DNA from: a virus
Length of the DNA stretch: 32,468 nucleotides
Reading direction: 5' to 3' (one strand)
Virus record (IMG/VR): IMGVR_UViG_3300024255_000093
Location: 1-32,468 of that record
Numbering within the stretch: position 1 is the stretch's first letter; the number at the start of each line of letters is the position of its first letter. The translations under genes were made by a program, and so were the position numbers. A model generated the notes under the pieces. The model saw nothing but the letters and a program-made list of their open reading frames with translations, was not told the origin of the DNA and searched no databases. This document shows, piece after piece, positions 3,336 through 25,518 of the stretch.

Positions 3336-3374
3336 ATTAAAGTAAATAGGCAAATGAAATGAAAACATTTAGAA
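3336..3374 (+). repeat. 39-bp RBS/start/leader repeat, copy 1
   Basis: Spans the RBS region, the start codon (ATG at 3359) and the first codons of the gene at 3359. It matches 4052-4090 with about three differences, and the ATG sits at the same offset (23 bases) in both copies. Because identity extends upstream of the ATG into non-coding (copy 1) or out-of-frame (copy 2) sequence, it is a DNA-level duplication and not only a conserved peptide. Confidence 0.85.
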
Positions 3375-4078
3375 AATTCATAACCGAAGAAAAACATGGC
3401 AAACTTAATGTTAAGCCTGAGCAAAAGGTTATGAATTTTCTTAAAAAATATAATATTCCTGATGATACTGGTGTGGCTAATTATGGAATAGATTTTGGTC
3501 CAAATGGCGGCAAGGTACAGTCGACTGATAGTTATGTTAAAATTCCTATAGCTAGAAAAACTCAACGGGAAGCAATTCCAGAAAAAAATCATCCTTCAGT
3601 TGATAAATTATTAGCTGATATTGAGAAGGGTGCTTTTAAACATCCTCGCTTAATTAGCTATAATGTTGGAGATACTTATCGAGCAGGCCAGACAGCTCTT
3701 GTTATATATTTTGCTAATAGAGTAGCAGTTGGAAAACCAGATGCACTTTATCACTGGACAAAGACCGCAAATGTTGATAGTATATTAAAAAATGGATTAA
3801 AACCTTCTTCAGGAGATTGGGTAATTAGTGGTTCAAAGGTTGCATATGTTGCAACGTTCCTTACTGAAAAACCAAAGCGTTTAGCCAGAGTTCGAGGATT
3901 TACGCATTTTAAAGAGCCGACATGGACATTATTAAAAGTAGATCCTGGTAATTCTAAACTTTATGTTGACGAACATAGATTTGATCCTGATCCAATTAAC
4001 TGGATGATGTATGATGTTATTTTAAAAGATAATATAGAAGTAGTAAAAGATATTAAAGCAAATAGGCAAATAAAATGA
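3359..4078 (+). CDS. Putative capsid-packaged ADP-ribosyltransferase (Alt-like role)
   Basis: 239 residues. The N-terminus M-K-T-F-R-K-F-I-T-E closely follows the T4 capsid-targeting sequence of internal protein III (M-K-T-Y-Q-E-F-I-A-E), ending in an I-x-E cleavage motif. The C-terminal half has the pattern of ADP-ribosyltransferase folds of the DarT/KptA type: L-Y-H-W-T with H132 and T134, then N-V-D-S-I-L-K-N-G-L-K-P, then V-A-Y-V-A-T-F, and near the end Y-D-V-I-L-K-D-N-I-E-V, where the last conserved acidic residue would sit. T4 injects Alt, an ADP-ribosyltransferase, with its DNA; this protein would be an analogue with a different ART domain. It overlaps the next gene by 4 bases (ATGA). 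The ART call rests on motif pattern only. Alternatives are an RNA 2'-phosphotransferase-like enzyme or an inactive homologue. Confidence 0.6.
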   Translation: MKTFRKFITEEKHGKLNVKPEQKVMNFLKKYNIPDDTGVANYGIDFGPNGGKVQSTDSYVKIPIARKTQREAIPEKNHPSVDKLLADIEKGAFKHPRLISYNVGDTYRAGQTALVIYFANRVAVGKPDALYHWTKTANVDSILKNGLKPSSGDWVISGSKVAYVATFLTEKPKRLARVRGFTHFKEPTWTLLKVDPGNSKLYVDEHRFDPDPINWMMYDVILKDNIEVVKDIKANRQIK

Positions 4079-4090
4079 AAACATTTAGAG
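4052..4090 (+). repeat. 39-bp RBS/start/leader repeat, copy 2
   Basis: Second copy of the 3336-3374 repeat. Here its first half also codes for the C-terminus of the upstream gene (A-N-R-Q-I-K), and its second half is the start of the gene at 4075. Marks a likely duplication or recombination joint between payload genes. Confidence 0.85.
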
Positions 4091-4299
4091 AGCTATTAGA
4101 AAATAAAGAACATGAATATAACAATGAAGGTGGTATGTCTAAAGGTCAACTTAAGACTATGATTGATGCCGCTCAAGAGTTACATGATATGTTAAGTGAT
4201 AACGATAATATGCCTGAATGGGTTCAATCAAAAATTACAAAAGCTACAGATTATATTGATACAGCTCGTGACTATATGAAAAGTGAAGTAAACAAATGA
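4075..4299 (+). CDS. Small acidic protein with capsid-targeting-like start
   Basis: 74 residues, starting M-K-T-F-R-E-L-L-E-N from a duplicated RBS/start cassette. L-L-E could serve as the L-x-E cleavage site of a T4-type prohead protease. The remainder is a short amphipathic, mainly helical acidic protein (an S-K-G-Q-L-K-T-M-I-D-A-A-Q-E-L helix, then a C-terminal T-D-Y-I-D-T-A-R-D-Y helix). Start and stop both overlap neighbours by 4 bases (ATGA), indicating translational coupling with the ART-like gene before it and the DUF6321-like gene after it. No function recognised; a small internal protein is inferred. Confidence 0.75.
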   Translation: MKTFRELLENKEHEYNNEGGMSKGQLKTMIDAAQELHDMLSDNDNMPEWVQSKITKATDYIDTARDYMKSEVNK

Positions 4300-4586
4300 A
4301 AAGTTTTAAACAACATATAGCAGAACGTGGTGAAGATTCTAAAGGTCATAAAATCGCCACAGAAAAGGGAGCTGGATTAACACAAAAAGGTGTTGATGCA
4401 TACAAACGAAAGAATCCAGGAAGTAATTTACAAACTGCTGTGACAGGTAAAGTTAAGGCTGGAAGCAAAGATGCAAAGAGACGGAAATCATTTTGTGCCC
4501 GTATGAGCGGTATGAAAGGCCCTATGAAAGACGAAAAGGGTAGGCCAACAAGAAAAGCAATGTCGTTAAGACGTTGGAAATGTTAA
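4296..4586 (+). CDS. DUF6321-like basic protein with capsid-targeting leader
   Basis: 96 residues. The N-terminus M-K-S-F-K-Q-H-I-A-E matches the T4 internal-protein leader, including the I-A-E cleavage site. From about residue 25 it carries a compact Lys/Arg/Gly-rich module (G-A-G-L-T-x-K-G-V, A-V-T-G-K-V-K-A-G-S, R-R-K-S-F-C-A-R-M-S-G, S-L-R-R-W-K-C at the end). I know this module as a widespread phage and bacterial family, I believe DUF6321. Two conserved cysteines and the very basic composition suggest nucleic-acid contact, but the function is unknown. Fusion of this module to a packaging leader suggests it is carried in the virion. Coupled to the previous gene by an ATGA overlap. Confidence 0.75.
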   Translation: MKSFKQHIAERGEDSKGHKIATEKGAGLTQKGVDAYKRKNPGSNLQTAVTGKVKAGSKDAKRRKSFCARMSGMKGPMKDEKGRPTRKAMSLRRWKC

Positions 4587-4918: not shown

Positions 4919-4926
4919 TATAAATA
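4919..4926 (+). promoter_or_regulatory. T4-type late promoter
   Basis: Exact TATAAATA, within TTATATAAATAG, 46 bases before the start codon of the large repeat protein at 4965. It lies in a non-coding gap. The same extended box recurs before three other genes at similar distance. Confidence 0.75.
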
Positions 4927-4964
4927 GAACTATAATATCCAAGCTTGTATAAATGGAGACAAAA

Positions 4965-7550
4965 ATGGAAACGAAAGACTTAAACAGTATAGGCTTGGCA
5001 TATCTTGAGATGGTCGAGAAAAGAAATATTGAAGCAAAAAAGAATCATGCTGATACATTGCATAAGAATCAAAAAGCGTTAGACGTTCATTCTGATGAAG
5101 ACGAAGATCATAACGATGATCCTACTGACGGAGATGGCGATATCGATGCAGCAGATTTGAAGAAGCTTCGGAAAGATGCCGATAAAGACGATAAGAAATT
5201 TGATAAAAAGAAAAAATCATCTAAAAAAGATGACGATCAAGACAAGTTTAAAGCATATTCTGGTGATGACACAGATGGTCAACAAGGTGCTGCTATTGGT
5301 GAAGATGCAAAGTATCCGCATATGATGTATGATCCTAAGACTGGTAAAGAATTTAAAGCAGAAACACCAGCTGATCACGAAAAATATGCAAAAATGGGAT
5401 ACACTCACGATAAACCAGAAGAGATTGATGAATCAGCAGATTTACAAGAAGGCGCAGCACGTCAAGCCGCTTTTGCAAAAGGTCTTATGGATTACTGTAA
5501 AGAAATTGGCAAAGATCATATGGATCATAAAGATTTTATGGATCATGCAAAGCATGTTAAAGCCGGTAACTGGGATGAAGCCCGCAAGCATGCTGATAAG
5601 CAGGACACTGAAGTAAGAGAAAAAATTCATAGTTTGGCAATTGATCATTTAGGCCAAGGCGCTGCAAGCGAATTATATGGCGGTGATCGAGTAAGCCTAT
5701 CAAAAAAAGAAGGAGATGGTAAATTGCATGCATCTTATAACGAATCAGTAAATGTAGACGATGTATTAGCACTTATTGATCAAGGCTATACATTAGATCA
5801 AGCTGAAGCAATGGTTGCAGAAGCGTGTGGCGGCGGTGGCGGCGGTGGCAACATGGGAGCTGGGCTTCAGCAGTCACGGAAATATCCTGATGATAAAAAA
5901 CTATTAAAAGCTTCACGAAAGCAATCAAAAGCTGGAGATAATGATAGAAATATAGCAAACGATCAAAGGTCAATTCCAGCAAAAGGAGCAGATACTGTAC
6001 CTGTTAGACCTGGTACAAAACAGCAACAGCGCGATTTTGATAAAGCTGCAAGAATGGCTAAATCAAAAGATAAAGTGTCTGTAGCTAAAGCTCCTTGGGA
6101 ATCTGTTGAGGTTGATGAGGGCTATGGTAGTATGGTATCACCAAAAGACCGAGCTCGCATAAAAGCGAGGGTTGATGCTAATATGGATAAACTTTCAGCT
6201 GGCCAAAAGAAAATAGCAAAACAAACTCCGCCAAGGCATAAAATTACGACAGATGATCTTGAACATTTACGTAAGCATGGCCATGGCAATAGTCCACAAA
6301 AAGAATCTGTTATGGATCGTGTTAGTAATATGGTTGAAGATATTCGAGCTAAAAATGAAATTAGTGAATTGCATAAGAAAACTCTTGGTAGTTATGCCAA
6401 AAAAGCTATGGATGATGTAGATACACAAAGCCGCTTCGCCACCGAATATGAAAAGCGTGGAATGGCAGCTAAAAACCCTGGAGTAATGGACAAGAATTTC
6501 AAAAAAGCAAACCGTGCGGATGATAAGCTTCGTAATCGTAAAGCTGGTATTAACACAGCTATTGATAAAATGACTAAAGAAGGTACCGCTAAAATCAATG
6601 AATTGTCACCTACCACAATGCAAAGTTACCAGAAAAAAGCTGATAAAGCTTCTACTAAGTCTTTTAAAAAGGCAGATGATATTGAAGATAAAGCAAGTGA
6701 TAAAGGTGATGATGTTTGGAGTAGTAAAAGCAAAGCAAGCCAGAAACATTCAAAGATGATGGGCACAGGCGAGAAAAGAGCTGCAGGAGCTAGATTAGCA
6801 AGAAAAAAGCTCGCTAAAATCAATGAATTAGATAAGAAAACTCTTGGTAGTTACATTAATAAAGCGGCAGATGATGTTGAGTATCGTGCATACGCGTTAG
6901 GCGCGCAAGAGCCTACCGAGCTAGGATCAGTGCGTAAAGGAAGAAATCGTATAAAAGGTATCGCAAAAGCTACTGATCGTTTGACTAAAGAAGACGCGGA
7001 AAAAATTAATAACCCAATGAAAGGTATGCCCCGCGGTGGCTGGCAAGGGAGTGGACCAGCTGAGCCAATGCGTGTAAAAACTATGTCGAAAAAAAGAGAA
7101 AAAGAACTAAGAGCTGCAGGAAAACTATCTAATAGTGCAAATAATGCATCTCATTATGCCGGTGAATCTGTGCAAGAAGCTTCTAAGCCAACTGGAATTC
7201 ATCATCCTATTGATCCAACACCTGGTAAAGAAGTTAACTCAAAAGATGCTGCAGGTCGTGCAGCTGATATAAGAGCTAGCCGCAACCCACTTTCTATGAC
7301 TGAGAAAGAATTTGTTGAAATGCATCAAGTTCCAACAACAGTAGATCCAGCATTTGATGGTAATGTAGCAGCTAAACAAACAGCTGAAAATGCTAAAAAA
7401 GCTCCGATCAAACAGGCCAAAACACCTAATACTCCTACATCAAAAGGTGATCAAAAAATTATGCCGGATCCCACACCATATGGTGGTCCAGCCGTAAAAA
7501 CAGAAAGCTATATGGATAAGTATGCTAAATACATTAGAGGAGAAATCTAA
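4965..7550 (+). CDS. Large repeat-module protein, putative prohead-processed internal protein
   Basis: 861 residues from the ATG at 4965, which is preceded by GGAGA at 4955-4959; an in-frame ATG at 4953 overlaps that RBS and is less likely. The N-terminal 110 residues are Asp/Lys-rich. The sequence L-Q-E-G-A-A near nt 5442-5456 fits a T4 prohead-protease site. A poly-glycine run at 5829-5850 divides the protein. The second half holds three related modules of about 76 residues starting near 6355, 6591 and 6816 (pattern I-N-E-L-x-K-K-T-L-G-S-Y-x-x-K-A), each beginning at an I-S/N-E-L motif and closing with L/M-T-K-E. Cutting after I-x-E would release the modules. No enzyme motif. Expressed late, judging from the promoter. 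Function unknown; scaffold-core or internal-head polyprotein is the inference. Confidence 0.75.
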   Translation: METKDLNSIGLAYLEMVEKRNIEAKKNHADTLHKNQKALDVHSDEDEDHNDDPTDGDGDIDAADLKKLRKDADKDDKKFDKKKKSSKKDDDQDKFKAYSGDDTDGQQGAAIGEDAKYPHMMYDPKTGKEFKAETPADHEKYAKMGYTHDKPEEIDESADLQEGAARQAAFAKGLMDYCKEIGKDHMDHKDFMDHAKHVKAGNWDEARKHADKQDTEVREKIHSLAIDHLGQGAASELYGGDRVSLSKKEGDGKLHASYNESVNVDDVLALIDQGYTLDQAEAMVAEACGGGGGGGNMGAGLQQSRKYPDDKKLLKASRKQSKAGDNDRNIANDQRSIPAKGADTVPVRPGTKQQQRDFDKAARMAKSKDKVSVAKAPWESVEVDEGYGSMVSPKDRARIKARVDANMDKLSAGQKKIAKQTPPRHKITTDDLEHLRKHGHGNSPQKESVMDRVSNMVEDIRAKNEISELHKKTLGSYAKKAMDDVDTQSRFATEYEKRGMAAKNPGVMDKNFKKANRADDKLRNRKAGINTAIDKMTKEGTAKINELSPTTMQSYQKKADKASTKSFKKADDIEDKASDKGDDVWSSKSKASQKHSKMMGTGEKRAAGARLARKKLAKINELDKKTLGSYINKAADDVEYRAYALGAQEPTELGSVRKGRNRIKGIAKATDRLTKEDAEKINNPMKGMPRGGWQGSGPAEPMRVKTMSKKREKELRAAGKLSNSANNASHYAGESVQEASKPTGIHHPIDPTPGKEVNSKDAAGRAADIRASRNPLSMTEKEFVEMHQVPTTVDPAFDGNVAAKQTAENAKKAPIKQAKTPNTPTSKGDQKIMPDPTPYGGPAVKTESYMDKYAKYIRGEI
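6355..7010 (+). repeat. Three tandem ~76-residue coding modules
   Basis: The modules start at about 6355, 6591 and 6816. The DNA GCTAAAATCAATGAATT is identical at 6588-6604 and 6813-6829, and AAGAAAACTCTTGGTAGTTA is shared by the first and third modules. Each module opens with an I-x-E-L motif and a T-L-G-S-Y or similar helix. Confidence 0.75.
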
Positions 7551-8095
7551 TGTTTGCAAACGACGATAATGAAAAAATTATAGAAACTTATGCGTTGCTT
7601 TTGCAAGATATAAGAGAAGGCAATAAAGCTGAGCAAGAAGCTGATAAGTGGGCCGCGGGAAATCGGTATGCGAATGAAAAAGATAATGATTATTTGCCTC
7701 CTGCGAAGAATGAAAAAGATGATCATAAGCATCTTGCTAATGGAATAGTTTATTCAAGCAGTAAATGGCCCGAACCCGAAAAGTTAAAGGCCATTCATTC
7801 AGGCTATGTATCTCATGTTTATCATGCCGATGATAGAAATGTTGGAACCACAAAAAAACCACATTTTAACAAAGGTTTTATTAAAATTCATTATAAAAAA
7901 GATGGAAAAATTCATGTGGATCGCACGCATCCTCACCCATCACCGTTAGTAAAAATTATCCAACTACCGCTTAAAAGCCAAAAGGGTCACAAATATAAAG
8001 TAACAAAATCATCTTATCCTTCTACTTTTTTGATCAACCGAAAGAAACATGCCCATGCGTTGTTGCTCCAAAAGCCGGAAAAAGAAAAAGAATAA
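7550..8095 (+). CDS. Unknown basic protein with MFAND-type N-terminal leader
   Basis: 181 residues, starting in a TAATG overlap with the previous stop, with AGAGGAG as RBS. The first 25 residues match those of the gene at 2796 (M-F-A-N-D-D-N-E-K-I-I, then L-L-L-Q-D-I-R-E-G). The body is different: G-I-V-Y-S-S-S-K-W-P-E-P near residue 65, F-I-K-I-H-Y-K-K-D-G, and a basic C-terminus. It looks like a folded alpha/beta domain rather than low-complexity text, but I do not recognise its family. The shared leader with an unrelated body suggests that the leader directs different cargo to the same place, probably the prohead. Confidence 0.75.
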   Translation: MFANDDNEKIIETYALLLQDIREGNKAEQEADKWAAGNRYANEKDNDYLPPAKNEKDDHKHLANGIVYSSSKWPEPEKLKAIHSGYVSHVYHADDRNVGTTKKPHFNKGFIKIHYKKDGKIHVDRTHPHPSPLVKIIQLPLKSQKGHKYKVTKSSYPSTFLINRKKHAHALLLQKPEKEKE

Positions 8096-8103
8096 TATAA
8101 ATT
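8096..8103 (+). promoter_or_regulatory. Possible weak late promoter
   Basis: TATAAATT, one base off the late consensus, 27 bases before the ATG at 8123. The same octamer also occurs inside coding regions, so chance is likely; this is a low-confidence site. Confidence 0.25.
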
Positions 8104-8122
8104 AATAAAGTATAGAAACATA

Positions 8123-8491
8123 ATGCAATTATTTGATGAAATAAATGATGACAATTTACTAATATTTGCTTCTCGGCATTACTACAATCCAAAATGTATT
8201 GATGTCGAGGAGTTTTACGAAGATTTAAATAAATTTAAATATGTAAAGAGATTAGTGAATAGATACAATGAATCAGGAAAATTAGCTGAAAGACTTATAT
8301 TAAATCATCTTATTGTTATTTTTAACGTTTTTGGAGTTGACGCAAGCATAAAGATTTTAAAGTATAAATTAAATAATGATCATTGGAAAGTGATAAAACC
8401 ATTTTTGATATTTTTAAATCATATTAAGCCAACTGATTTTGTGGATATTGAAATGGATGATAAGATTGTACAAATATTAAGAAAGATATAA
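8123..8491 (+). CDS. Conserved T4-like marine phage protein (DUF7207-like)
   Basis: 122 residues. Text such as L-F-D-E-I-N-D-D-N, F-A-S-R-H-Y-Y-N-P-K-C, E-E-F-Y-E-D-L-N-K-F-K-Y and L-N-H-L-I-V-I-F-N-V-F-G matches a small helical protein that I recall as conserved in T4-like cyanophages (possibly DUF7207). No catalytic residues stand out. It lies just before another conserved structural-type gene and shares its direction and spacing. Function unknown. Confidence 0.75.
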   Translation: MQLFDEINDDNLLIFASRHYYNPKCIDVEEFYEDLNKFKYVKRLVNRYNESGKLAERLILNHLIVIFNVFGVDASIKILKYKLNNDHWKVIKPFLIFLNHIKPTDFVDIEMDDKIVQILRKI

Positions 8492-8494
8492 AGA

Positions 8495-9085
8495 ATGGGA
8501 TTTATTAAGAAGGCCGGTGATTTAGTATATACCTTTAGGTTTTTGGCCTTGTTGGTGACACCGTTCGAAAAGACAAAGGCCTTTGAGTTAGGTCTTATTG
8601 ACAAAGATGGTAAGCGTACTCGAACTGATGGTGATTTGGATTACCCAGAACAAAGAGATGCGTATACACCATTTATTCGTTTGGTATTTAATATTAAAAG
8701 ATTAATGGCCAAAGCGCCTGGAGGTCAATCAGTTGTTGCTCGATATGCTGCAGCGCTGTATCTCATTAAAGAAAATTTAGATCTAACTGATAAGTCAATA
8801 AAACAAATTACAGAAAAATGTGGACTTGATCCACTCGATTTTTTGTCAGAACAAAGCGGTTGGTTTTTATTGGAAAGCGGTGCTTTAGCTCCGGGTTCAT
8901 ATCAAATTAAAAATAGTAAAGTGATTAATAGTACGTTTGAAGAAGTTGTAAGACCAAAAGATTGGATACGTGTTGGTAATGATTGCCATCCTGTAGGTGA
9001 AATGTTTGGATTAAATGTATATGAAGCTACACATGTAAATACCAGACAAAAAGTATATATCACTATAGGAGAAATAATGTCATGA
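8495..9085 (+). CDS. Conserved marine myovirus protein of unknown function
   Basis: 196 residues. The N-terminus has a hydrophobic helix (V-Y-T-F-R-F-L-A-L-L-V-T-P-F) followed by E-K-T-K-A-F-E-L-G-L-I-D-K-D-G-K-R, then a helical core and a C-terminal beta-rich part (V-R-P-K-D-W-I-R-V-G-N-D, then H-V-N-T-R-Q-K-V-Y-I). I recall similar proteins next to the preceding gene in T4-like cyanophages, where they are treated as structural, but I cannot name a function. The stop overlaps the next start (ATGA), so it is probably coupled to the nuclease-like gene. Confidence 0.7.
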   Translation: MGFIKKAGDLVYTFRFLALLVTPFEKTKAFELGLIDKDGKRTRTDGDLDYPEQRDAYTPFIRLVFNIKRLMAKAPGGQSVVARYAAALYLIKENLDLTDKSIKQITEKCGLDPLDFLSEQSGWFLLESGALAPGSYQIKNSKVINSTFEEVVRPKDWIRVGNDCHPVGEMFGLNVYEATHVNTRQKVYITIGEIMS

Positions 9086-9885
9086 TGAGCCTAAAAAAAT
9101 ATATCAAAGAAATGGCGGCAGTAGCAGTTTCAGATTTAGATACAGAATTTTTAGCAAAGGCTCAAACATTAACATCATTTAATTTAAAAGGATCTGATTT
9201 TACTTCTTTAAAATATAAAAAAGAAATTCAACATTTATTTCATATGAAATATTTTCCGAAGTTTGATATGGATGGCACTATAAAAGGTCAACCAACTGTA
9301 GGTAAAGTTAATTCAGTTTTAAAGGAACTGAAAAGGATTGACTCAACAGCTTTTGGAAAATTACATAAGTATGATATTAAAGGTGTTGGTCCTGGTGAAG
9401 CCATGTTATTCTTTATTTTAGATGATGCTCACTTAGGTGGCGGCTCTTCTGCAGGAGTTGATTTAGTAGTTGACGGTAAAAATTATGAAATTAAAGCTGG
9501 CAATTTTACTAGAGACGGATATATGGTTAACTATAAATTAGGTGCCACTATGGATATGACAAAAATAGTCGGTCCAGCCCTCGAACTTAAGAATATAGCT
9601 GATCCCAAAGGAGCTTTAGGCAGAGAAAAATCTGGTGTAAATCAAAAACAAATGGCGGCTATTAAAAGAATACCAAAGCTTGCAGCCAGATGGAAAAAAG
9701 AAGTTGAAACTCCTTATATCGATGCCGCTCATAAATATCTTTCTGCAAATCCAATTATCTTTATGGTTAATACGTCGCCCAAGAATTTGGCCGGAATGTG
9801 TCAAGCTATCAAAGTGCCTAAAAAGTCTGATATTGGATTAGATATGGTAACTCAAGGAATAATCAAACCAAAGGTGAAGGTATGA
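9082..9885 (+). CDS. PD-(D/E)XK nuclease-like protein with capsid-targeting-like start
   Basis: 267 residues; ATG at 9082 with AGGAG at 9067-9071 (an ATG at 9085 is also possible). The start M-S-L-K-K-Y-I-K-E-M resembles a capsid-targeting leader ending in an I-K-E site. The middle has the core of a PD-(D/E)XK nuclease: G-P-G-E with E106, then G-V-D-L-V-V-D with D127, and Y-E-I-K with E136 and K138. The spacing D127-(8)-E136-x-K138 is typical of the fold. The C-terminal half is helical with no motif I know. If packaged, it would be a nuclease delivered with phage DNA or active in the head. Alternatives are a resolvase- or repair-type nuclease, or a non-catalytic relative. The fold call is from motif only. 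Confidence 0.55.
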   Translation: MMSLKKYIKEMAAVAVSDLDTEFLAKAQTLTSFNLKGSDFTSLKYKKEIQHLFHMKYFPKFDMDGTIKGQPTVGKVNSVLKELKRIDSTAFGKLHKYDIKGVGPGEAMLFFILDDAHLGGGSSAGVDLVVDGKNYEIKAGNFTRDGYMVNYKLGATMDMTKIVGPALELKNIADPKGALGREKSGVNQKQMAAIKRIPKLAARWKKEVETPYIDAAHKYLSANPIIFMVNTSPKNLAGMCQAIKVPKKSDIGLDMVTQGIIKPKVKV

Positions 9886-10190
9886 AAAATAGAAGAGCAC
9901 AATTAAAATCTTTGAAGAAGGCATTAAAAAATTATAAGCCTCTTGAAAAAGATGATAAAAAAGACGAAGTTCAAGAAGATGCCCCAGCTAATTCAATCAG
10001 TGTCGGTGGACCAGTTGCTGGCCACGATAATATTCCGCTTGGTCATGAAATGATGCGTAGAATCAAAGAAGTTCCAGTAACTGATCGTAGATATAAACTC
10101 AATAGTTCAAAAGCTAATACTTTAAAGAAAAAATATAGAGGTAAAGAACTATTGTTAACTACATTTAAGAAACACGCATACGGCAAGTAA
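9882..10190 (+). CDS. Small basic structural-type protein
   Basis: 102 residues, coupled to the nuclease-like gene by an ATGA overlap. The N-terminus is Lys-rich (M-K-N-R-R-A-Q-L-K-S-L-K-K-A-L), followed by an acidic linker with V-Q-E-D. Next comes a turn-rich segment (S-I-S-V-G-G-P-V-A-G-H-D-N) and a basic C-terminal helix (Y-K-L-N-S-S-K-A-N-T-L-K-K-K-Y-R). The G-G-P-V-A-G stretch resembles linkers in other phage structural proteins. Function not recognised. It sits at the end of the internal-protein block, directly before the spanins. Confidence 0.7.
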   Translation: MKNRRAQLKSLKKALKNYKPLEKDDKKDEVQEDAPANSISVGGPVAGHDNIPLGHEMMRRIKEVPVTDRRYKLNSSKANTLKKKYRGKELLLTTFKKHAYGK

Positions 10191-10700
10191 ATGCTTAAAA
10201 TTTATATGATGATCTTTATAGTTGGACTGATAGGCTCTATAGGTTATGGAGCTTATGCTACATGGAATCATATGCAAGCAAAAATAGAAATATTAACAGC
10301 AAACAATGCTAAGCTTGAAGGTGCTGTACAGACTCAAAAAGATACTATTGGCGCACTTGAATCTGATATTCAAGCAGTTAACAATGAATTAAAAAGCGTT
10401 AATAAACAAATGACCCGTACACGCACGCGGAATAAAATACTTGCAAAGAAATTAGAAAGTTTAGATCTTGGTTTGCTTGGTGCTGAAAAGCCAGATGTAG
10501 TTGAAAAATTAATTAATAGGGGAACTGCCAATGCATTAAGATGTTTTGAATTAATGTCTGGCGCTCCATTAAGTGAAAAAGAAAGAGAAGCAGAAAATGG
10601 AAAAGCGTTTAATCGTGAATGCCCTTGGTTGTTTGATACTCTTGTTGACCCTGAACGGTTGCAGCAGCTTGAAGAGACTTCCCGAAACAGTAGAGATTAA
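10191..10700 (+). CDS. i-spanin (Rz-like)
   Basis: 169 residues. An N-terminal membrane segment (residues about 4-23, M-M-I-F-I-V-G-L-I-G-S-I-G-Y) is followed by a long coiled coil (about 33-95, rich in Q/E/L/K) and a C-terminal periplasmic part with two cysteines. This is the layout of an inner-membrane spanin. The diagnostic point is the next gene: it starts inside this one in another frame and encodes a lipoprotein, as in lambda Rz/Rz1 pairs. Together they would fuse inner and outer membranes at lysis of a Gram-negative host. The endolysin lies far away at 24658. The family call is from architecture. Confidence 0.7.
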   Translation: MLKIYMMIFIVGLIGSIGYGAYATWNHMQAKIEILTANNAKLEGAVQTQKDTIGALESDIQAVNNELKSVNKQMTRTRTRNKILAKKLESLDLGLLGAEKPDVVEKLINRGTANALRCFELMSGAPLSEKEREAENGKAFNRECPWLFDTLVDPERLQQLEETSRNSRD

Positions 10701-16928: not shown

Positions 16929-18146
16929 ATGAAAACTTTTAAACAGATGAACGAAGATATTCAACATCAAAAGCAGCTTAATGAAAAGGGCTTTCTTAAG
17001 AGAATTAGGCGGGCAAAAGATGCTGCAATAGCGTCATTTAAAAGTGACCCTGAAAAGCATGCAGAAAGAATGAAGAATATAAGTAATAGAGCCAAGGCCC
17101 AAGATGCTGAGCATGAAAAAGCAAAAGCTGCTTTGAGTGATAAAAGTAAAAGTAACGCCAAAAAATTAGGAAACTTAAAAGGGTTAAGCAAAGGTTATAA
17201 TATTACCAAAAAAGGTAATGCTGATAATCCAAACGCAATGCGACCTAAGGGTAAATCTGGATCATTCTTTGATACTACTGCTCCTCATAATCCTCATAAT
17301 ACAGGTAGATTGGCTCCCCATCCTCAAGGTGATTGGGTAGATGGCGCTGGAAACACTAAACAAGAAGTGGATAGGGCAAATGATCATTCTCGCGACATGG
17401 CTCCTTCTCGCATTATTGCTAGAGAAAATAGCATAGATAGTGAGAGCGACAAAGATCGTAGAGCTGTTCATGGTCCTAGTGATGCTGAAGACCGTGTGAA
17501 GACTATTAAAAAGCATATTACGAAACTTAAAGCACATGCCCCCGAAGCAAAAGACAGAATAGCTCATGCTGAACATACTTTAAAACTCCATATGGATGCT
17601 CACGCTGCTGCTGGCGCTCATATGGAAACTCACGCAGAAAAAGAATATACATCTTCGCACGTCGGTCATTATCATGAACATCATTATGGTAATGGAGCTC
17701 ATGACCACCATTATGAAGAAATGGAAAGGCATAAAAAAGCTGAACAAGAGAATCCTTCTGAAACACATATTAATGATGCAAGACTAGGATATGATCATAC
17801 ACATGAAGATCATCCACATCATGAAGAAGAAAGAACAGCTGACCATGCTCCAAACCTTCCAAAACATAGTGCTACGTTGCATAAATTGGTTAAAACTGCT
17901 ACTGCAGCACATCATGCTTATAATGAAATGGTTGATAGCCAAACTAAAGCTGAAGCTGGGCTTCCGGAAGGTCAAAAGAGTAAAACTAAATTTCATAAGA
18001 AAGCTGCTTATGACAAAGTTGATGTTAAAACCCGCTCGACATATTATAAAAAAGCATTAACAAAATTAACTCCAGAAGGTAACGATGCAGTTAAAAATTT
18101 AAAACATGTCGGTAAAGATCACAGACAAGGTACTTTGGATATTTAA
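16929..18146 (+). CDS. Histidine-rich protein with capsid-targeting-like start
   Basis: 405 residues, RBS GGGG. It starts M-K-T-F-K-Q-M-N-E-D, like the T4 internal-protein leader, though the cleavage motif would be M-N-E rather than I/L-x-E. An N-terminal basic coiled coil (to about residue 90) is followed by a Pro/Gly/Asn-rich linker. The central region, about 215-315, is extremely rich in histidine (for example H-Y-H-E-H-H-Y and H-T-H-E-D-H-P-H-H-E-E-E), then a basic helical C-terminus follows. The histidine clusters could bind metal ions. It is expressed late from its own promoter and is followed 14 bases later by fibre genes. I infer a packaged or assembly protein; no enzyme family recognised. 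Confidence 0.75.
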   Translation: MKTFKQMNEDIQHQKQLNEKGFLKRIRRAKDAAIASFKSDPEKHAERMKNISNRAKAQDAEHEKAKAALSDKSKSNAKKLGNLKGLSKGYNITKKGNADNPNAMRPKGKSGSFFDTTAPHNPHNTGRLAPHPQGDWVDGAGNTKQEVDRANDHSRDMAPSRIIARENSIDSESDKDRRAVHGPSDAEDRVKTIKKHITKLKAHAPEAKDRIAHAEHTLKLHMDAHAAAGAHMETHAEKEYTSSHVGHYHEHHYGNGAHDHHYEEMERHKKAEQENPSETHINDARLGYDHTHEDHPHHEEERTADHAPNLPKHSATLHKLVKTATAAHHAYNEMVDSQTKAEAGLPEGQKSKTKFHKKAAYDKVDVKTRSTYYKKALTKLTPEGNDAVKNLKHVGKDHRQGTLDI

Positions 18147-18160: not shown

Positions 18161-20662
18161 ATGGGAAGCTATTCCAGAAAAAGATATGCAACTGAATCAG
18201 CTAGCTTTCCAAAAAGCGCAAGCTCAGCACCAGGATCGTATTCATACGAGAACTTTGCTGACTTGCCTGCTACAGGTTCTACACCTGGAAATACTGCTTT
18301 TGTTGTAGCAACAAATAAATTATATATTTGGAGCGGTGTTGGATGGTACTTAATTGCTACTGTTACAAATGTATCTCCAACTGCTATTACTGGAGTTAGT
18401 GATACATATGCACTTGCAATAGATGGTACAGCCACAACTATTACTGCAGTTTCTACTGATCCTGAAGGATTTGCTTTAACTTGGTCCTATGCGGTATCAT
18501 CTGGATCATTAGGTAGTACTGCTACAGTAGCTCAAGCAGATAATGTTTTTACAATTACACCATCAAGTACAGAAGCAGATGCTGGAACTTTTAGTTTAAC
18601 ATTTAGTGTGACTGATGGTCTAAATGGAGTCGTAAGTGCAGTAAGTGCGTTTACATTATCATTTTCTGTTACTAATTCAAGATACACTGCATTATCAGTT
18701 AAGGCGACTGCAGCTGGCTCTAATCAAACCTTTGATGATGCATCCACTTCAAATCATACAATAACTGTTGCTGGTAATTCAACAGCATCAACATTTAGTC
18801 CATATCGTCATGGTGGATATTCTGCATATTTTCAAGGCCCGGGCGCTTATTTAGTGCCAGCTTCAACAGCCATGGTTATACCCTCTTCTACAGAATTTAC
18901 AATCGAATGTTGGGCTTATCTTACAGCCAAAAATACTCATCAAATATTATTTGGAGGGTCTAGCGGATATCTTTATTTTAGTGTGAAAGACGATAATACT
19001 GTTGAGTTTCAAATTGCAAACTCAACTGCTTATTTTCCATGGGCCGGGACCCTCAATAATAACACTTGGTATTATATAGCTGTAGTTAGAAACTCAACTA
19101 ATACTATTAAACTGTGGATAGATGGCGTGGAAGTAACTGCAACAAGCGGAGCAAATCAAACAGGCGCTCTTACTATTGCGAATATAGGCAAAGCTGTTGG
19201 ATACGTTTCAAGCAGTGATTTCAACGGATATATAAGTGATTTTAAAGTAGATGTTGGCAATGCGCGGTATAGCAGTAATTTCACTCCCCCCACTTCGCCT
19301 TCTGTTGCAGATTCAAACACAACATTCTTACTAGGTCGACTACCTTATTTTAAAGATCAATCTACATCAAATCATGCAATCACTCCTAATGGTAATGTAT
19401 CTTTAGAACCAAAATCTGTATTTGATCCTGCTGCATATTCAGAATCCTCTCATGGTGCGTCTGCATATTTTGATGGTACTGGTGATTATATATCAGTGGC
19501 AAATCATGCAGATTTTAATTTTGGTTCTGGAAATTTTACTATCGAATCATATGTCTATTATACAATAAACCCAACGACCAATCAAGCCATTGTGGCGCAA
19601 TGGCACACCGCTACTGACAGAAGGGCGTGGCAGTTACGCCGGGACAACAGTGGCCAATTTCGATTTTTTTGGTCGACCACTGGAGCGGATTACCCATATA
19701 TACAGTCTACTGGTATAAATCTTAATACCATGAACCGTCAATGGATACATGTTGCTGTTGTAAGAAATGGAAATACGATTACCATGTATGTTGATGGCAC
19801 AGATGTTGTCAACACAACACTAACAGGATCTCTGTATGATAACACAGCAGATGATATTTTTATCGGCGCTAGGTCCACAAATCCACCAAATATTGATCAT
19901 CAGACAGAGGGTTATATACAAGATTTAAGAATAACCAAAGGCACAGCGGTTTACACATCTAACTTCACACCGCCAACTGCACCTCTAACTGCGATCACAA
20001 ACACGAAATTCTTACTCAATCCAGAAACATCTATTTCAGATTTGAGTCAGCAACACGCTTTAACATGCTATGGTAATGTCGCAACAGATGCAACAACAGT
20101 AAAATTTGCTGGAACAAAATCTATTGCATTTAATGGAACGGGAGATTATATTGTATTTTCTAATGGCACACCATCCACCACTGACCTAACTTTCGATGAA
20201 GAATTTACGATTGAATTTTGGGCGTATCTTAATGCCACTAATGTAACTACAATTTTTTATAGTTGCGGAGGTGGGACTGCTAATTGGAGTGCTACAACTG
20301 GAAATGAATCATCCTTCTTCATCTATAATGGTAAGCTGTATCACCAGAGTAGTCAGGGCGGTTCATTTCATAGTGATAATATTAGTATTCCATCAGTAGT
20401 TCAAACTGGACAGTGGCAACATTGGGCTATAACATGTGATGCAAATGCAGATTGCAAATGGTATCTAAATGGAACTTTAATGTGGTCATATGCTCATGTT
20501 TTCCCGACAAAGAAAACTGGCACGATTTGGAGAGCAGTAATAGGCGCTGGGCAGTATCTCACAGATGACAATCTTGATGGCTATATTCAAGATTTCCGAA
20601 TCACAAAAGGGCTTGTAAGATATACTTCAAACTTTACACCACCGACAGAATTACAGGGATAG
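18161..20662 (+). CDS. Tail fibre/adhesin with three LamG-like domains
   Basis: 833 residues. It begins M-G-S-Y-S-R-K-R-Y-A, shared in outline with the next gene, so this is probably the anchoring peptide. A short beta module with N-K-L-Y-I-W-S-G-V-G-W-Y-L follows (about 45-70), then an Ig-like domain (about 75-170, with D-G-T-A-T-T-I-T-A-V and F-S-V-T-D-G). Three LamG/concanavalin-like repeats come next, each with F-T-I-E-x-W/Y, W-x-H-x-A-V-V-R-N and a closing G-Y-I-x-D-F/L-R/K segment ending N-F-T-P-P-T. LamG folds usually bind glycans or proteins, so this is likely a receptor-binding fibre. It shares long near-identical DNA with the fibre gene at 26534. Confidence 0.85.
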   Translation: MGSYSRKRYATESASFPKSASSAPGSYSYENFADLPATGSTPGNTAFVVATNKLYIWSGVGWYLIATVTNVSPTAITGVSDTYALAIDGTATTITAVSTDPEGFALTWSYAVSSGSLGSTATVAQADNVFTITPSSTEADAGTFSLTFSVTDGLNGVVSAVSAFTLSFSVTNSRYTALSVKATAAGSNQTFDDASTSNHTITVAGNSTASTFSPYRHGGYSAYFQGPGAYLVPASTAMVIPSSTEFTIECWAYLTAKNTHQILFGGSSGYLYFSVKDDNTVEFQIANSTAYFPWAGTLNNNTWYYIAVVRNSTNTIKLWIDGVEVTATSGANQTGALTIANIGKAVGYVSSSDFNGYISDFKVDVGNARYSSNFTPPTSPSVADSNTTFLLGRLPYFKDQSTSNHAITPNGNVSLEPKSVFDPAAYSESSHGASAYFDGTGDYISVANHADFNFGSGNFTIESYVYYTINPTTNQAIVAQWHTATDRRAWQLRRDNSGQFRFFWSTTGADYPYIQSTGINLNTMNRQWIHVAVVRNGNTITMYVDGTDVVNTTLTGSLYDNTADDIFIGARSTNPPNIDHQTEGYIQDLRITKGTAVYTSNFTPPTAPLTAITNTKFLLNPETSISDLSQQHALTCYGNVATDATTVKFAGTKSIAFNGTGDYIVFSNGTPSTTDLTFDEEFTIEFWAYLNATNVTTIFYSCGGGTANWSATTGNESSFFIYNGKLYHQSSQGGSFHSDNISIPSVVQTGQWQHWAITCDANADCKWYLNGTLMWSYAHVFPTKKTGTIWRAVIGAGQYLTDDNLDGYIQDFRITKGLVRYTSNFTPPTELQG
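20006..20050 (+). repeat. 45-bp exact repeat in fibre genes, copy 1
   Basis: Identical to 28901-28945. It lies in the linker before the last LamG domain (K-F-L-L-N-P-E-T-S-I-S-D-L-S-Q). It is a likely site for recombination between the two fibre genes. Confidence 0.95.
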
Positions 20663-20665
20663 CTT

Positions 20666-21898
20666 ATGGGTAAGTATTCTGAAACCCGATATGCAAATAT
20701 GATTCCCACATTTGAACCGGCGGCTTTACCCGCCTCAGAAGCTGCTGCGGCACAAAAATCTAACATGAGAGTTTACGAAACTCTTGCAGATTTACCAGCA
20801 ACTTCTACAAGCAAGGGAAATACTGCATTTGTTAAAGCTACAAATAAATTGTATGTGTGGAATGGTGTTGGTTGGTATCTAGTCGCTGAAGTAACAAATG
20901 CTTCACCTTCTTCTATTACTGGTGTAAATTCAACATATGATTTAGCAACTGATGGAACAGCCACAACTATTACTGCAGTGGCCACCGATCCAGAAGGAAT
21001 GGCTTTAACGTGGTCATCAAGTGTAACTGCCGGTTCATTAAATGGAACAACCGTTTCAAATGTCGATAATGTATTTACTATCACGCCTCACGCAAGTAAT
21101 GCAACAACATTCAGTATTACATTTAATGTAACAGATGGCGTGAATGGAAGTGTAAGTGCGATTGGGGCATTTTCATTGACATTCACTCCTCCCTTGCCAA
21201 CTTCTGGGCTAACAGGGCTATACGACATGAATAACAGCAGCAGCTATTCAGGAACTGGATCAACTTGGGCAGATGTTTCAGGGAATTACGGACCTAACCT
21301 GACGATTAATTCTTCCGCAGTTAGTTATACAGCATCTTCCATTGGAGGGATACCATCGCTGACGCTCGCCGCCGCAGATCCGAACGGACCAATTTATTAT
21401 GATGGTTCTGCGTTTACGACCACAACAACGGTGGTTATGATTTTTGCCAAAACCGACACGCCATATGCACAAACATATTATAACATGTTTAGCAACAGGA
21501 CAGGGTGGACAGTCTCAGGTGGAAGCATAACGGTTAGAGACCATGGTGTGAGAATGTGGTCCGGATCGACTTATAGCGATGGCACCACAGGCAGTATCAG
21601 GAGCAGCACCACCAAGTTGTATATCGACAAGGTCGACACAACGGCATACAATCGCGGGCAATATTATGATGCAGTTTCGTCAAGTTCTAATTTAGGCAAA
21701 TATCACTCGCTAGTACTGACTGAGGGTAATTTTGGAAATGGGTTTGCTTTCTCTTCGTCCGTTACTACCAATGCTATTTCGCCTTTAGGGGAATTACGGG
21801 CTTTAGTGTTCTATAACCGCGCACTATCTCAAAGCGAGGTAAACGATGTACATGACCATTTTGCCGGAGACTACACTAGTTCTGAGATGATACAGTAA
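20666..21898 (+). CDS. Tail fibre/adhesin with Ig-like domain and LamG-like head
   Basis: 410 residues, three bases after the previous gene. The N-terminus M-G-K-Y-S-E-T-R-Y-A matches the previous fibre, as do the N-K-L-Y-V-W-N-G-V-G-W-Y-L module and the Ig-like domain. The C-terminal 220 residues are new. They start G-L-T-G-L-Y-D-M-N-N and end with E-L-R-A-L-V-F-Y-N-R-A-L-S-Q-S-E-V, an ending typical of LamG-type jelly rolls. The DNA of this head is richer in GC (about 47% by hand count over 21301-21420) than the AT-rich surroundings, suggesting separate acquisition. Probably receptor binding, sharing the attachment site of the 833-residue fibre. Confidence 0.8.
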   Translation: MGKYSETRYANMIPTFEPAALPASEAAAAQKSNMRVYETLADLPATSTSKGNTAFVKATNKLYVWNGVGWYLVAEVTNASPSSITGVNSTYDLATDGTATTITAVATDPEGMALTWSSSVTAGSLNGTTVSNVDNVFTITPHASNATTFSITFNVTDGVNGSVSAIGAFSLTFTPPLPTSGLTGLYDMNNSSSYSGTGSTWADVSGNYGPNLTINSSAVSYTASSIGGIPSLTLAAADPNGPIYYDGSAFTTTTTVVMIFAKTDTPYAQTYYNMFSNRTGWTVSGGSITVRDHGVRMWSGSTYSDGTTGSIRSSTTKLYIDKVDTTAYNRGQYYDAVSSSSNLGKYHSLVLTEGNFGNGFAFSSSVTTNAISPLGELRALVFYNRALSQSEVNDVHDHFAGDYTSSEMIQ

Positions 21899-21908
21899 TA
21901 GTTAAAAG

Positions 21909-21935
21909 GTCAATAAAAACTGTTTCTCTATTGAC
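21909..21935 (+). repeat. 7-bp inverted repeat before a promoter
   Basis: GTCAATA and TATTGAC flank 13 bases, between the end of the fibre unit and the -35 at 21951. No T-run follows. It could be a weak terminator or a binding site. Confidence 0.35.
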
Positions 21936-21950
21936 ACACTAACATAAAGG

Positions 21951-21979
21951 TTTACATTTGCTAAATAATGTGATACAAT
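21951..21979 (+). promoter_or_regulatory. Sigma-70-type promoter
   Basis: TTTACA at 21951-21956, TACAAT at 21974-21979, spacer 17. It precedes the gene at 22010 by 30 bases and follows the late fibre unit. Confidence 0.7.
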
Positions 21980-22009
21980 ATTAGTATAATCTGTTAAAAA
22001 GGTAGTACT

Positions 22010-22582
22010 ATGAATTTATTCATCTTAGATAAAGATCCAATCAAAGCGGCTCAATTACAATGTGATAAGCATGTAGTTAAAATGATTGTCGAATCTGCAC
22101 AAATGTTATCAACAGCTCATCGTATGCTTGATGGTGTACAAACACGTCGTAAGTCTCAGTCAGGTAAAACTATGAGTAAGTACTGGGAACTTCCTGATGA
22201 TCGTGAAGCTGTTCTATACAAAGCAGTTCATATGGGTCATCCTTGTACGGTATGGACAATGCAAAATGATAATAATTATCGATGGCACTATGAACATTTT
22301 TCTGCGCTGTGTAAAGAATATACATATCGCTATGATAAAACTCATGCTACTCAAACAAAACTAAAATCGTATCTTATGAAGCTTCCAAATAATATCAAAG
22401 AAGGATGGAAATATCAGATGACTCCATTTGCTTTGGCTATGAAAGCTGAACCACAGTGTATCAATGAAAATGATATTGTGCAGTCATATAAAGATTATTA
22501 TCAAACAAAACAAGATAGATTTAAAATGGCATGGACTCGTCGTCCAATTCCAGAATGGTTTGAGGTAAAAGAAAGTGCGTAA
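22010..22582 (+). CDS. Conserved phage protein of unknown function, early
   Basis: 190 residues. Landmarks: M-N-L-F-I-L-D-K-D-P near the start, Q-C-D-K-H-V-V-K-M-I-V-E-S-A-Q-M-L (about 18-34), G-H-P-C-T-V-W-T-M-Q (about 77-86), W-H-Y-E-H-F, and E-Y-T-Y-R-Y-D-K-T-H. Conserved D, H and K residues suggest an enzyme. I recall this family as frequent in marine phages, sometimes labelled as a pyrimidine-dimer glycosylase, but I cannot confirm that label from the sequence. First gene after a sigma-70-type promoter, so probably early. The next gene starts within its last codons. Confidence 0.7.
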   Translation: MNLFILDKDPIKAAQLQCDKHVVKMIVESAQMLSTAHRMLDGVQTRRKSQSGKTMSKYWELPDDREAVLYKAVHMGHPCTVWTMQNDNNYRWHYEHFSALCKEYTYRYDKTHATQTKLKSYLMKLPNNIKEGWKYQMTPFALAMKAEPQCINENDIVQSYKDYYQTKQDRFKMAWTRRPIPEWFEVKESA

Positions 22583-22778
22583 AGTTTCTATTCCACACAA
22601 GTTTAATAAATTCTTAAAAGAAGAATCTGCGCATTATCGTAGAGCATTACAGCTACCAGACGATAATCCTGCTAAGCGTGATATAATTCACCATTGGGAA
22701 TTAGAGATTATTAAACAAAAAAATGCATTACAGATGGACTTTGATGAACTACGATACTGTAACATAAATATCACATAA
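22575..22778 (+). CDS. Small protein, GTG start
   Basis: 67 residues starting at GTG, overlapping the previous gene by 8 bases (GTGCGTAA) with GAGG about ten bases upstream. Charged and helical (P-H-K-F-N-K-F-L-K-E-E, then H-H-W-E-L-E-I-I-K-Q-K-N-A). No recognised family. Probably coupled to the gene before it. Confidence 0.65.
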   Translation: MRKVSIPHKFNKFLKEESAHYRRALQLPDDNPAKRDIIHHWELEIIKQKNALQMDFDELRYCNINIT

Positions 22779-22810
22779 TATATTAAATGCAAATTAAATG
22801 TATTTTGTTG

Positions 22811-22839
22811 TTTACAACTGGTCAAAAATGTATTATAAA
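22811..22839 (+). promoter_or_regulatory. Sigma-70-type promoter
   Basis: TTTACA at 22811-22816, TATAAA at 22834-22839, spacer 17. It lies inside the frame upstream of the ATG at 22864, which argues for the later start of that gene. Confidence 0.7.
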
Positions 22840-22863
22840 GGTATTAACAAAAGGAGATACATT

Positions 22864-23118
22864 ATGAAACTGGTAAAAATTCAACTTGATATCCTAGAAG
22901 ATGCAGTTGCATCAGAAGCAAAAAATGGCGTACGTAAGCCAATCCATGTAAGAAATTTTAATAATCTTGATGGCTTTTCACAAAGATATCAAGAGTATTG
23001 TAATCGAATGGAAATGTTAATAAATGCCGGTTTTATTTCTCGTGATATCAATCCTAATGATGGATATGCTTATATCACAATCAAAGGTGAAAACTTTATT
23101 AATGGAGTTACTTATTAA
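22864..23118 (+). CDS. Small conserved-type protein heading the phoH transcript
   Basis: 84 residues from the ATG at 22864, which has AAGGAG at 22851-22856. The same frame is open to an ATG at 22798, but that would place coding sequence over the promoter, so the later start is chosen. Sequence: V-K-I-Q-L-D-I-L-E-D-A-V-A near the start and G-Y-A-Y-I-T-I-K-G-E-N near the end, resembling a small winged-helix-like alpha/beta fold. Function unknown. It begins a chain of overlapping genes running to the phoH-like gene. Confidence 0.7.
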   Translation: MKLVKIQLDILEDAVASEAKNGVRKPIHVRNFNNLDGFSQRYQEYCNRMEMLINAGFISRDINPNDGYAYITIKGENFINGVTY

Positions 23119-23348
23119 TGTTTAATATTGAATATAGAGTTATTGATAGTATACAATTTGGCGGTCTCAAGAATGGAACATATCTTCAACTTGTTGTAAA
23201 TAAGAACATGAATGGTAGAAAGCCAAAAGAATATATCAGATCTTGGTCAAGTCTATCTAAACAATGGAATATCATGTATAGATATAATGTAGAAGAATCA
23301 TGGAACAAATGGAAAAGGACTGAAAAAACGTGCCAACATACACATTAA
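23118..23348 (+). CDS. Small unknown protein
   Basis: 76 residues, TAATG overlap with the previous stop. Beta-rich start (I-E-Y-R-V-I-D-S-I-Q-F-G-G), a central K-E-Y-I-R-S-W-S-S-L-S-K-Q-W, and a tryptophan-rich C-terminus ending C-Q-H-T-H. The last codons overlap the next gene by 19 bases. No family recognised. Confidence 0.65.
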   Translation: MFNIEYRVIDSIQFGGLKNGTYLQLVVNKNMNGRKPKEYIRSWSSLSKQWNIMYRYNVEESWNKWKRTEKTCQHTH

Positions 23349-23563
23349 AAAATATTAAGACAAATGATAGATGGGATGTAGTTTGCAGTTGGAATGATTT
23401 GCAAGAAACAATAAAACACGATCCTGAAATAATTCAGGTTCCATGCGCTCCTCGGTTCGTAGCTGGAAAAGGTGACATGTTTGGAAAAACACCAGATGGA
23501 TTTAAAGAGCTTAAGCAAAGAATGAAAAGTGGTTCAGGTGAAGGTAATACAATTAGACTATGA
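23330..23563 (+). CDS. Small conserved T4-like protein, FmdB-ribbon-like without cysteines
   Basis: 77 residues from a GTG start. It reads P-T-Y-T-L-K-N-I-K-T-N-D-R-W-D-V, then a helix, then I-I-Q-V-P-C-A-P-R-F-V-A-G-K-G-D-M and a basic C-terminus (P-D-G-F-K-E-L-K-Q-R-M-K). This pattern follows small T4-like phage proteins related to FmdB-type ribbons, here lacking the zinc cysteines. Role unknown. It overlaps the PhoH-like gene by 4 bases (ATGA), so expression is coupled. Confidence 0.65.
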   Translation: MPTYTLKNIKTNDRWDVVCSWNDLQETIKHDPEIIQVPCAPRFVAGKGDMFGKTPDGFKELKQRMKSGSGEGNTIRL

Positions 23564-24249
23564 CAAAGAAAAATAATTCACTACAGGTTCATGCTGATGA
23601 ACTTGTTCGTATTGAGCCTATTACAGAAAATCAACGATTAGCATTTTCTGCTTGGGAAGAAAATAAAAATATAGTATTGTCAGGTAGTGCTGGTACTGGT
23701 AAAACCTTTATTGGCTTATATCTAGCGCTGAAAGCTATGCTGGATGAACCTGAAATATATCGTGATATAACTATTATGAGATCCATCGTACCTACACGGG
23801 ACGGTGGTTTTTTGCCGGGTACAATAGAAGAAAAAAGAGAACCATTTAACTTACCGTATAAATTTATATGTAATGAGTTGTTTGGTGAGTTTGGTTCTTA
23901 TAATAAAATGTTACACTCAAAGCAGATAAAATTTGAATCTACTTCGTATATTCGTGGTTGCACATTCGATCATTCAATTATTTTAGTTGATGAGATGCAA
24001 AACTTAAACTTCCATGAATTAGACTCTGTTATAACTCGTATTGGTAAAGATTGTCGTGTTATTTTTTGTGGCGATTATATGCAATCAGATTTTAAGTTTG
24101 ATGATGAAAAAGACGGTATCATAAAATTTATGAAAATTGTAGAACAGATGAGATTTTTTGATGTAGTCAAATTTGGATGGGAAGATATTGTGAGATCTGA
24201 TTTGGTTCGTGATTATATAATGACGAAAGAAATGTTAGCTATTTCATAG
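23560..24249 (+). CDS. phoH: PhoH-like ATPase
   Basis: 229 residues. A P-loop ATPase of the PhoH family, common in marine phages, whose exact role (RNA metabolism or phosphate stress) is unsettled. Walker A is G-S-A-G-T-G-K-T at residues 42-49, preceded by I-T-E-N-Q-R-L-A-F (Q-motif-like). Walker B is I-I-L-V-D-E-M-Q-N near 140-148, followed by a T-R-I-G-K-D-C-R-V-I-F-C-G-D sensor segment. Length fits phage PhoH proteins. It ends a run of four overlapping small genes, and AGGAG for the next gene follows the stop. Confidence 0.9.
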   Translation: MTKKNNSLQVHADELVRIEPITENQRLAFSAWEENKNIVLSGSAGTGKTFIGLYLALKAMLDEPEIYRDITIMRSIVPTRDGGFLPGTIEEKREPFNLPYKFICNELFGEFGSYNKMLHSKQIKFESTSYIRGCTFDHSIILVDEMQNLNFHELDSVITRIGKDCRVIFCGDYMQSDFKFDDEKDGIIKFMKIVEQMRFFDVVKFGWEDIVRSDLVRDYIMTKEMLAIS

Positions 24250-24259
24250 GAGAAAATTA

Positions 24260-24427
24260 ATGAAAGATTGGGTTATCGGAAAACTAGGAGAAAAAACGTC
24301 TTGGAATGGAGCAGCGCTGATTGCGGTTGGAGTAATTGTTCTTATTGCTGGACCCTTCGCTAAGCTAGCAGCATACGGAGCAATTGCGTATGGAGCTTGG
24401 TGTATATGGGAGAAAGGCGATGATTAA
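24260..24427 (+). CDS. Small membrane protein, 55 residues
   Basis: ATG at 24260 with AGGAG at 24248-24252. A hydrophilic start (M-K-D-W-V-I-G-K-L-G-E-K-T-S-W-N-G) is followed by a hydrophobic segment from residue 18 to about 49 (A-A-L-I-A-V-G-V-I-V-L-I-A-G-P-F-A, then A-Y-G-A-I-A-Y-G-A-W) that could form one long or two short membrane helices, ending W-E-K-G-D-D. It overlaps the glutaredoxin gene by 8 bases. Function unknown; a membrane role near the endolysin makes a holin conceivable, but this is only a guess. Confidence 0.7.
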   Translation: MKDWVIGKLGEKTSWNGAALIAVGVIVLIAGPFAKLAAYGAIAYGAWCIWEKGDD

Positions 24428-25497: not shown

Positions 25498-25518
25498 TAT
25501 AAAGGTGAAATAAGTAAG

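Follow-up and report, generated by a model that had tools for sequence, protein, structure and literature searches.

The gene at 9082–9885 (+) of the window, by which we mean the whole 32,468-nucleotide stretch of viral DNA analysed here, raises the question of how an active nuclease could stay packed against the genome of its own virus. An earlier note on this DNA had read its product as a PD-(D/E)XK nuclease-like protein with a possible leader for packaging into the phage head. The gene belongs to a marine T4-like virus of bacteria, and its predicted product resembles restriction enzymes; the packaging tag and the cutting site, as read in the sequence, are both well supported.

Gene position, start and relatives

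The gene encodes a precursor of 267 amino acids and starts at an ATG with the ribosome-binding sequence TATAGGAGAAATAATGTCATGATG. Its start is overlapped by a conserved T4-like gene (8495–9085, +; PHROG match to phrog_18642/phrog_2086) and its stop by a small lysine-rich ORF of no known family (9882–10190, +). All of them belong to a tightly spaced run of genes (4953–10700, +), the last of which encodes an Rz-like spanin, i.e. a lysis (late) protein (10191–10700, +; phrog_739, E 3.3e-10). When numbering begins at the first ATG, the N-terminus of the product is MMSLKKYIKE; the earlier note had the type of leader right but began it one residue too late, at M-S-L-K-K-Y-I-K-E. Relatives with tandem methionines (MMKFKSYITE, MMRFRSFFRE) fit the T4 register from the first start only.

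Profile searches of IMG/VR revealed at least 158 (about 160) relatives of the nuclease. Ten of the copies on other contigs are close or near-identical (91–99%), and the presence of near-identical genes on several independent contigs rules out an assembly artefact. Among cultured phages, a homologue was detectable in six Vibrio phages only (~33% identity), and the complete genomes of the related C48C1, HTVC008M and Melnitz-3 lack the gene. Searches of Pfam, PHROGs, PADLOC and PDB sequences with the protein or its alignments gave nothing above the cut-offs, and no Pfam or PHROG model fits the family acceptably. Weak single matches to MELT_2, DUF4309 and NDP kinase were dismissed as chance.

The neighbourhood of the nuclease differs between lineages, as would be expected if the enzyme were a mobile endonuclease of the homing type, promoting the spread of the gene that encodes it, and PD-(D/E)XK homing nucleases do exist. 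However, the leader and the gene order with a DUF6267 protein are conserved in most loci, and no relative was confirmed in GTDB (84,980 bacterial and archaeal species, one genome each), which leaves a homing enzyme highly improbable.

Active site and predicted fold

Glu106, Asp127, Glu136 and Lys138 lie exactly where the earlier note had placed them. In the model, Glu106 (9397–9399, +) begins the first core helix (residues 106–112), Asp127 (9460–9462, +) lies beside strand 128–130, and the Glu136-x-Lys138 pair (9487–9495, +) is on strand 133–142. According to DSSP of the model, residues 11–95 of the mature protein (9112–9366, +) form an N-terminal helical region. The D...ExK spacing alone is weak evidence, because it arises by chance; its conservation across relatives makes it more than chance. 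All four residues are invariant in an alignment of 41 sequences, and in a core alignment of 52 sequences (mean column identity 50%) six charged columns are invariant, these four among them. Every one of the 74 non-redundant homologues has the motif, the 33%-identical Vibrio phage proteins included, so that homologues without the four residues, which were to speak against a nuclease, do not occur in this set.

The AlphaFold2 models have a mean pLDDT of 85.9 for the full protein and 88.7 for the core, with residues 1–11 below 50. The order of the predicted elements (helix with Glu106, strand, strand after Asp127, strand with Glu136 and Lys138, helix, strand) is that of the alpha-beta-beta-beta-alpha-beta core of PD-(D/E)XK enzymes, at modest match scores. 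Foldseek placed DpnI and PvuII first among PDB entries with weak E-values (best 0.15 and 0.24), and its BFVD match, an uncharacterised phage protein (E 2.7e-5), gave no function. With VIA-align, PD-(D/E)XK nucleases alone fill the first 17 rows obtained with the full model: ThaI (Z 5.2 over 143 residues, 4.3 Å), HinP1I (Z 4.2), PvuII, NhoI, DpnI and EcoRV are among them. The same holds for the top 18 rows obtained with the core model, which are led by HinP1I (Z 4.7 over 151 residues, 4.9 Å) and ThaI (Z 4.5) and include Eco15I, NhoI, DpnI, PvuII, a SPARDA chain and Hjc. These matches are modest (Z 3–5, below 8), and unrelated chains reach Z ≤3.0. Thus the structure prediction proposed in the earlier note gives such nucleases as all of its leading matches. 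It is motif conservation, topology and the unanimity of the matches, taken together, that support the assignment of the product as a PD-(D/E)XK-like predicted nuclease.

A nuclease fold could also belong to a packaged protein that binds DNA or counteracts restriction and does not cut. The analogy is with the anti-restriction protein IPI, the best-understood packaged internal protein of T4, which inhibits host nucleases (PMC3012670, PMC12373910). Invariance of all four catalytic residues across 37–99% identity is unexpected for a non-cutting scaffold, and we consider this explanation improbable.

The N-terminal leader

The internal proteins of T4 enter the prohead by means of an N-terminal capsid targeting sequence. 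Mutagenesis of IPIII demonstrated that its positions 4 and 7 govern targeting, while positions 8 and 10 govern processing by the protease gp21, which cleaves after (L/I)-x-E (all PMC9026906). The leader in the window (9082–9111, +), MMSLKKYIKE/M (the slash marks the predicted cleavage, here after Glu10), has Leu4, Tyr7, Ile8 and Glu10 in the register of the T4 sequence and ends with the gp21 motif as IKE. The same register is seen in all 28 distinct ten-residue leaders of the nuclease family: position 4 is F/L, 7 is Y/F/H, 8 is I/L/M/F/V and 10 is E, and positions 2, 3, 5, 6 and 9 vary, with mostly basic and polar residues. Among 38 distinct leaders with a predicted cut at E/M, P1 is always E, and P3 is I/L in 32 and M/F/V in the other six. 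Positions 4 and 7 are kept in the longer leaders MLKFKTFDMIQE and MQKFKTFFKLEE, where the cleavage site is shifted. Leaders of divergent homologues are MKSFKSYITE/ASIS and MKNFKQHITE/LTK.

Some homologues are leaderless (L052/L053, L065/L067, L114/L115, L161, L170 and those of Vibrio phages), and therefore packaging is either not universal in the family or takes another route. Most of them still have a late promoter. Their starts, such as MPNLNIKDLD and MFDIDKLD, align with the methionine after the cleavage site of the others (MAAVNVSDLD). In the window this column is occupied by Met11 (P1'; 9112–9114, +), which is probably a relic of the ancestral start codon. A ribosome-binding sequence is present at the leader ATG and mostly absent at the internal one. 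The simplest history suggested by these sequences is that the leader was added before an old start codon or was lost in some lines.

Neighbouring leader genes

The leader is shared by the neighbours of the nuclease. Strict T4-register N-termini were found in 101 of 1,023 genes in 83 nuclease loci (a figure that takes in the nuclease itself and redundant loci, and comes from related, non-independent sequences) versus 5 of 5,158 internal Met peptides. The usual order of a locus is nuclease, DUF6267 protein, small leader protein and cytidyltransferase. The leader of the DUF6267 protein ends with ...FITE/QKNTHMTH, and that of the cytidyltransferase with ...YLVE/EEK. On one contig (G013), seven further leader genes are found within 6 kb downstream of the nuclease, which together with them occupies less than 7 kb. 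The cytidyltransferase of Syn19 (T4-GC 190) begins with MKKFSAFLNE/A. Experiments have placed T4-GC 190 among the virion proteins of cyanophages (PMC3037559), and a cytidylyltransferase was found in S-CREM2 virions (PMC10665884); this family therefore ties the cluster of leader genes to real virions. As a separate observation, the segment KWDGAPAVFAG of one DUF6267 protein (L011, 6819–8042) resembles the nucleotidyltransferase (ligase) motif KxDG, with no supporting sequence match in the PDB.

These data bear on the possibility that the enzyme is a cytoplasmic nuclease made during infection, whose leader-like N-terminus plays no role in packaging. The leaderless homologues, cultured Vibrio phages included, fit such a protein. 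On the other side, N-termini show the strict register about 100 times more often than internal Met peptides do, and it is also carried by unrelated neighbouring proteins and by a virion-proven family. A purely cytoplasmic enzyme thus seems quite unlikely.

The window has candidate cargo genes of its own: 3359–4078 (+; MKTFRKFITE/EK), 4075–4299 (+; MKTFRELLE/NK) and 4296–4586 (+; MKSFKQHIAE/RG with Phe4, His7, Ile8 and Glu10; homologues have MDTFKQYISE/RG). A possible fourth (16929–18146, +; MKTFKQMNE/D) has an imperfect register and is preceded by TATAAATA 46 nt upstream. The 239-residue product of 3359–4078 has a marginal match to RNA 2'-phosphotransferase (Tpt1/KptA; Pfam E 0.022, PDB E 0.55), and may be a head cargo of the ADP-ribosyl type, similar to Alt of T4. 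In C48C1, a 58-residue leader protein (MKTFQEFMKQFEE/E; L084, 9591–9767) immediately follows the homologue of ORF 8495–9085, in the position that the nuclease has in the window, as if the site behind such homologues exchanged genes of packaged proteins.

Late expression and head machinery

Of 68 distinct (though related and non-independent) relatives, 56 have the T4 late promoter sequence TATAAATA in the 120 nt before the nuclease gene, versus 0.04 expected; with any first base (ATAAATA) the count is 57 of 68. In C48C1 the octamer stands before several structural genes, and it was found before none of the replication-type genes that were checked. The nuclease gene of the window has no adjacent late promoter: the nearest upstream match (4919–4926, +; octamer scan) is 4.2 kb away, before the run 4953–10700. 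Five such octamers occur in the window, all on the plus strand (4919, 14343, 16044, 16883 and 26494), a total at chance level, and four of the five are located 34–46 nt before a gene start, as T4-type late promoters are. Scans with promoter and terminator consensus sequences gave no more matches near the gene than chance predicts, and searches of the window for tRNAs and Rfam families found nothing.

The long nuclease-bearing contigs G003, G004 and G013 encode both a gp21-type protease and a T4-like major capsid protein (gp23), and the protease also occurs in three complete named phages; the 32-kb fragment that forms the window has no protease, capsid or modification gene. The N-terminal region of the capsid protein contains FLTE/T in C48C1 and ALNE/A in G013, which we take to be the gp21 cleavage site by likeness to T4. 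The earlier reading of the N-terminus as a packaging leader is therefore borne out at the level of sequence, by the matched T4 positions, the shared leader of the neighbours and the protease in genomes of relatives.

Two further observations concern large proteins of the window. The 865-residue product of 4953–7550 is internally repetitive, with imperfect copies centred on INEL..KTLGSY.KKA, several of which contain (I/L)-x-E motifs; it may be an internal or core protein of the head that is cut many times. Several large proteins of 18161–32468 share the repeated segment SPTAITGV...LTWSYAV...FTITPSS, two of them with repeated LamG-like blocks, and look like tail-fibre or structural paralogues.

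Late expression would also suit a nuclease that is placed in the prohead and processes the DNA of the phage itself while it is packaged, in debranching, trimming or head completion. The late promoter of relatives, which most leaderless homologues share, is in agreement with this role, as is the presence of Hjc, a PD-(D/E)XK nuclease that cuts branched DNA, among the structural matches. Yet the patchy distribution of the gene among complete related genomes, with three lacking it, puts it outside core packaging, and it is usually clustered with leader genes that resemble cargo. We regard such a role as unlikely, although it deserves more weight than the other alternatives.

Self-protection of the phage DNA

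A nuclease carried in the head must, we infer, spare the phage DNA. In T4, EcoRI and staphylococcal nuclease were packaged as leader fusions, and the virus was active (PMC9026906, PMC3012670); since that virus stayed viable, an active nuclease in the head is no paradox in itself. The case for sparing through base modification is only suggestive. The contigs G003 and G004 encode a homologue of the T4 dCMP hydroxymethylase (E 1.1e-69 to 1b49, ~50% identity), and the enzyme is also found on the nuclease-relative contigs G002, G005, G007 and G015. It would give DNA with hydroxymethylcytosine, a natural and, in several relatives, plausible way to spare the phage genome. Some marine T4-like phages may have hydroxymethylated DNA.

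A strict linkage of the two genes was rejected, because each occurs alone: the long related marine IMG/VR contigs G023 (135 kb) and G024 (152 kb) encode the hydroxymethylase and no nuclease, whereas the complete Vibrio phages Va1 and phiKT1024 have the nuclease, in the leaderless Vibrio version, and no hydroxymethylase. The co-occurrence numbers are small and confounded by descent. A PF00303 match on G008 was not counted, as the protein search, which covered G008 and left out G009, found no hydroxymethylase there. The complete genomes of C48C1, HTVC008M and Melnitz-3 gave no match to this enzyme. N6_N4_Mtase, the type of methyltransferase searched for, was found in none of 17 records of relatives, all of them fragments.

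Proposed mechanism

From the observed catalytic motif, compatible fold, leader register and leader-bearing neighbours, together with the protease and late promoters of relatives, we infer the packaging, cleavage, ejection, catalysis, target and protection as follows. The PD-(D/E)XK endonuclease would be synthesised late in infection as a precursor, whose first ten residues would serve as a T4-type capsid targeting sequence and draw it into the prohead core. A gp21-type prohead protease would cut after Glu10, so that the mature nuclease would stay behind in the head, surrounded by DNA. Ejected with the genome, the enzyme would cut DNA in the next cell to be infected, most likely that of the host or of a competitor, while the phage DNA would be spared by choice of sequence, by base modification in some lineages or by conditions in the head. 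In T4-like infections the DNA of the current host is usually attacked before the late stage, so a late-made nuclease with a leader is best placed to act after the next injection. To this reading, a late-made nuclease that is packaged, freed of its leader and active in the next cell, we give a probability of roughly 0.6. A more specific version of it is tentative: the enzyme could be an offensive restriction device of the virion, which cuts unmodified DNA of the host or of rival phages at once, the incoming genome being marked by hydroxymethylcytosine or otherwise.

For T4, a function is known for only a few of the natural internal proteins, and nucleases were loaded into heads via leaders in the laboratory; in the literature searched, no description of a natural head-cargo nuclease activity of T4-type internal proteins was found. 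A widespread natural nuclease with such a leader would add direct attack on DNA to what virions are known to deliver. With the leader register, candidate head cargo could also be listed simply in T4-like phages, most of whose genes are unannotated.

Comparison with known systems

The predicted nuclease shares its core fold and E...D...ExK active site, as modelled, with ThaI, HinP1I, NhoI, DpnI and PvuII. Unlike these type II restriction endonucleases, it has an additional N-terminal helical region and no detectable sequence similarity to them, and it is the product of a probable viral late gene with a packaging-type leader, with no N6/N4 methyltransferase found on the searched contigs of relatives. 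The DdrB protein of P1, an example of the predicted packaged DNases among polyvalent proteins, with its ParB-like DNase domain (PMC5512222), is similar as a proposed virion-carried DNA-cutting domain directed against host or rival DNA, but differs in fold and in the route of packaging. In the T4 fusions of the capsid targeting sequence with EcoRI and staphylococcal nuclease (PMC9026906, PMC3012670), a nuclease is likewise joined to a targeting leader; they are laboratory constructs tolerated in live phage heads, whereas the nuclease of the window would be a natural one. With IPI, IPII, IPIII and Alt of T4 it has in common an N-terminal leader of about ten residues with hydrophobic or aromatic positions 4 and 7 and an (I/L)-x-E end, as well as clustered, fast-changing cargo genes and, in relatives, a gp21-type protease. 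In contrast to those proteins, known as an inhibitor or an ADP-ribosyltransferase, the cargo here, known from its sequence, is a predicted nuclease. Probably, it represents a T4-type internal protein with a nuclease as its cargo activity.
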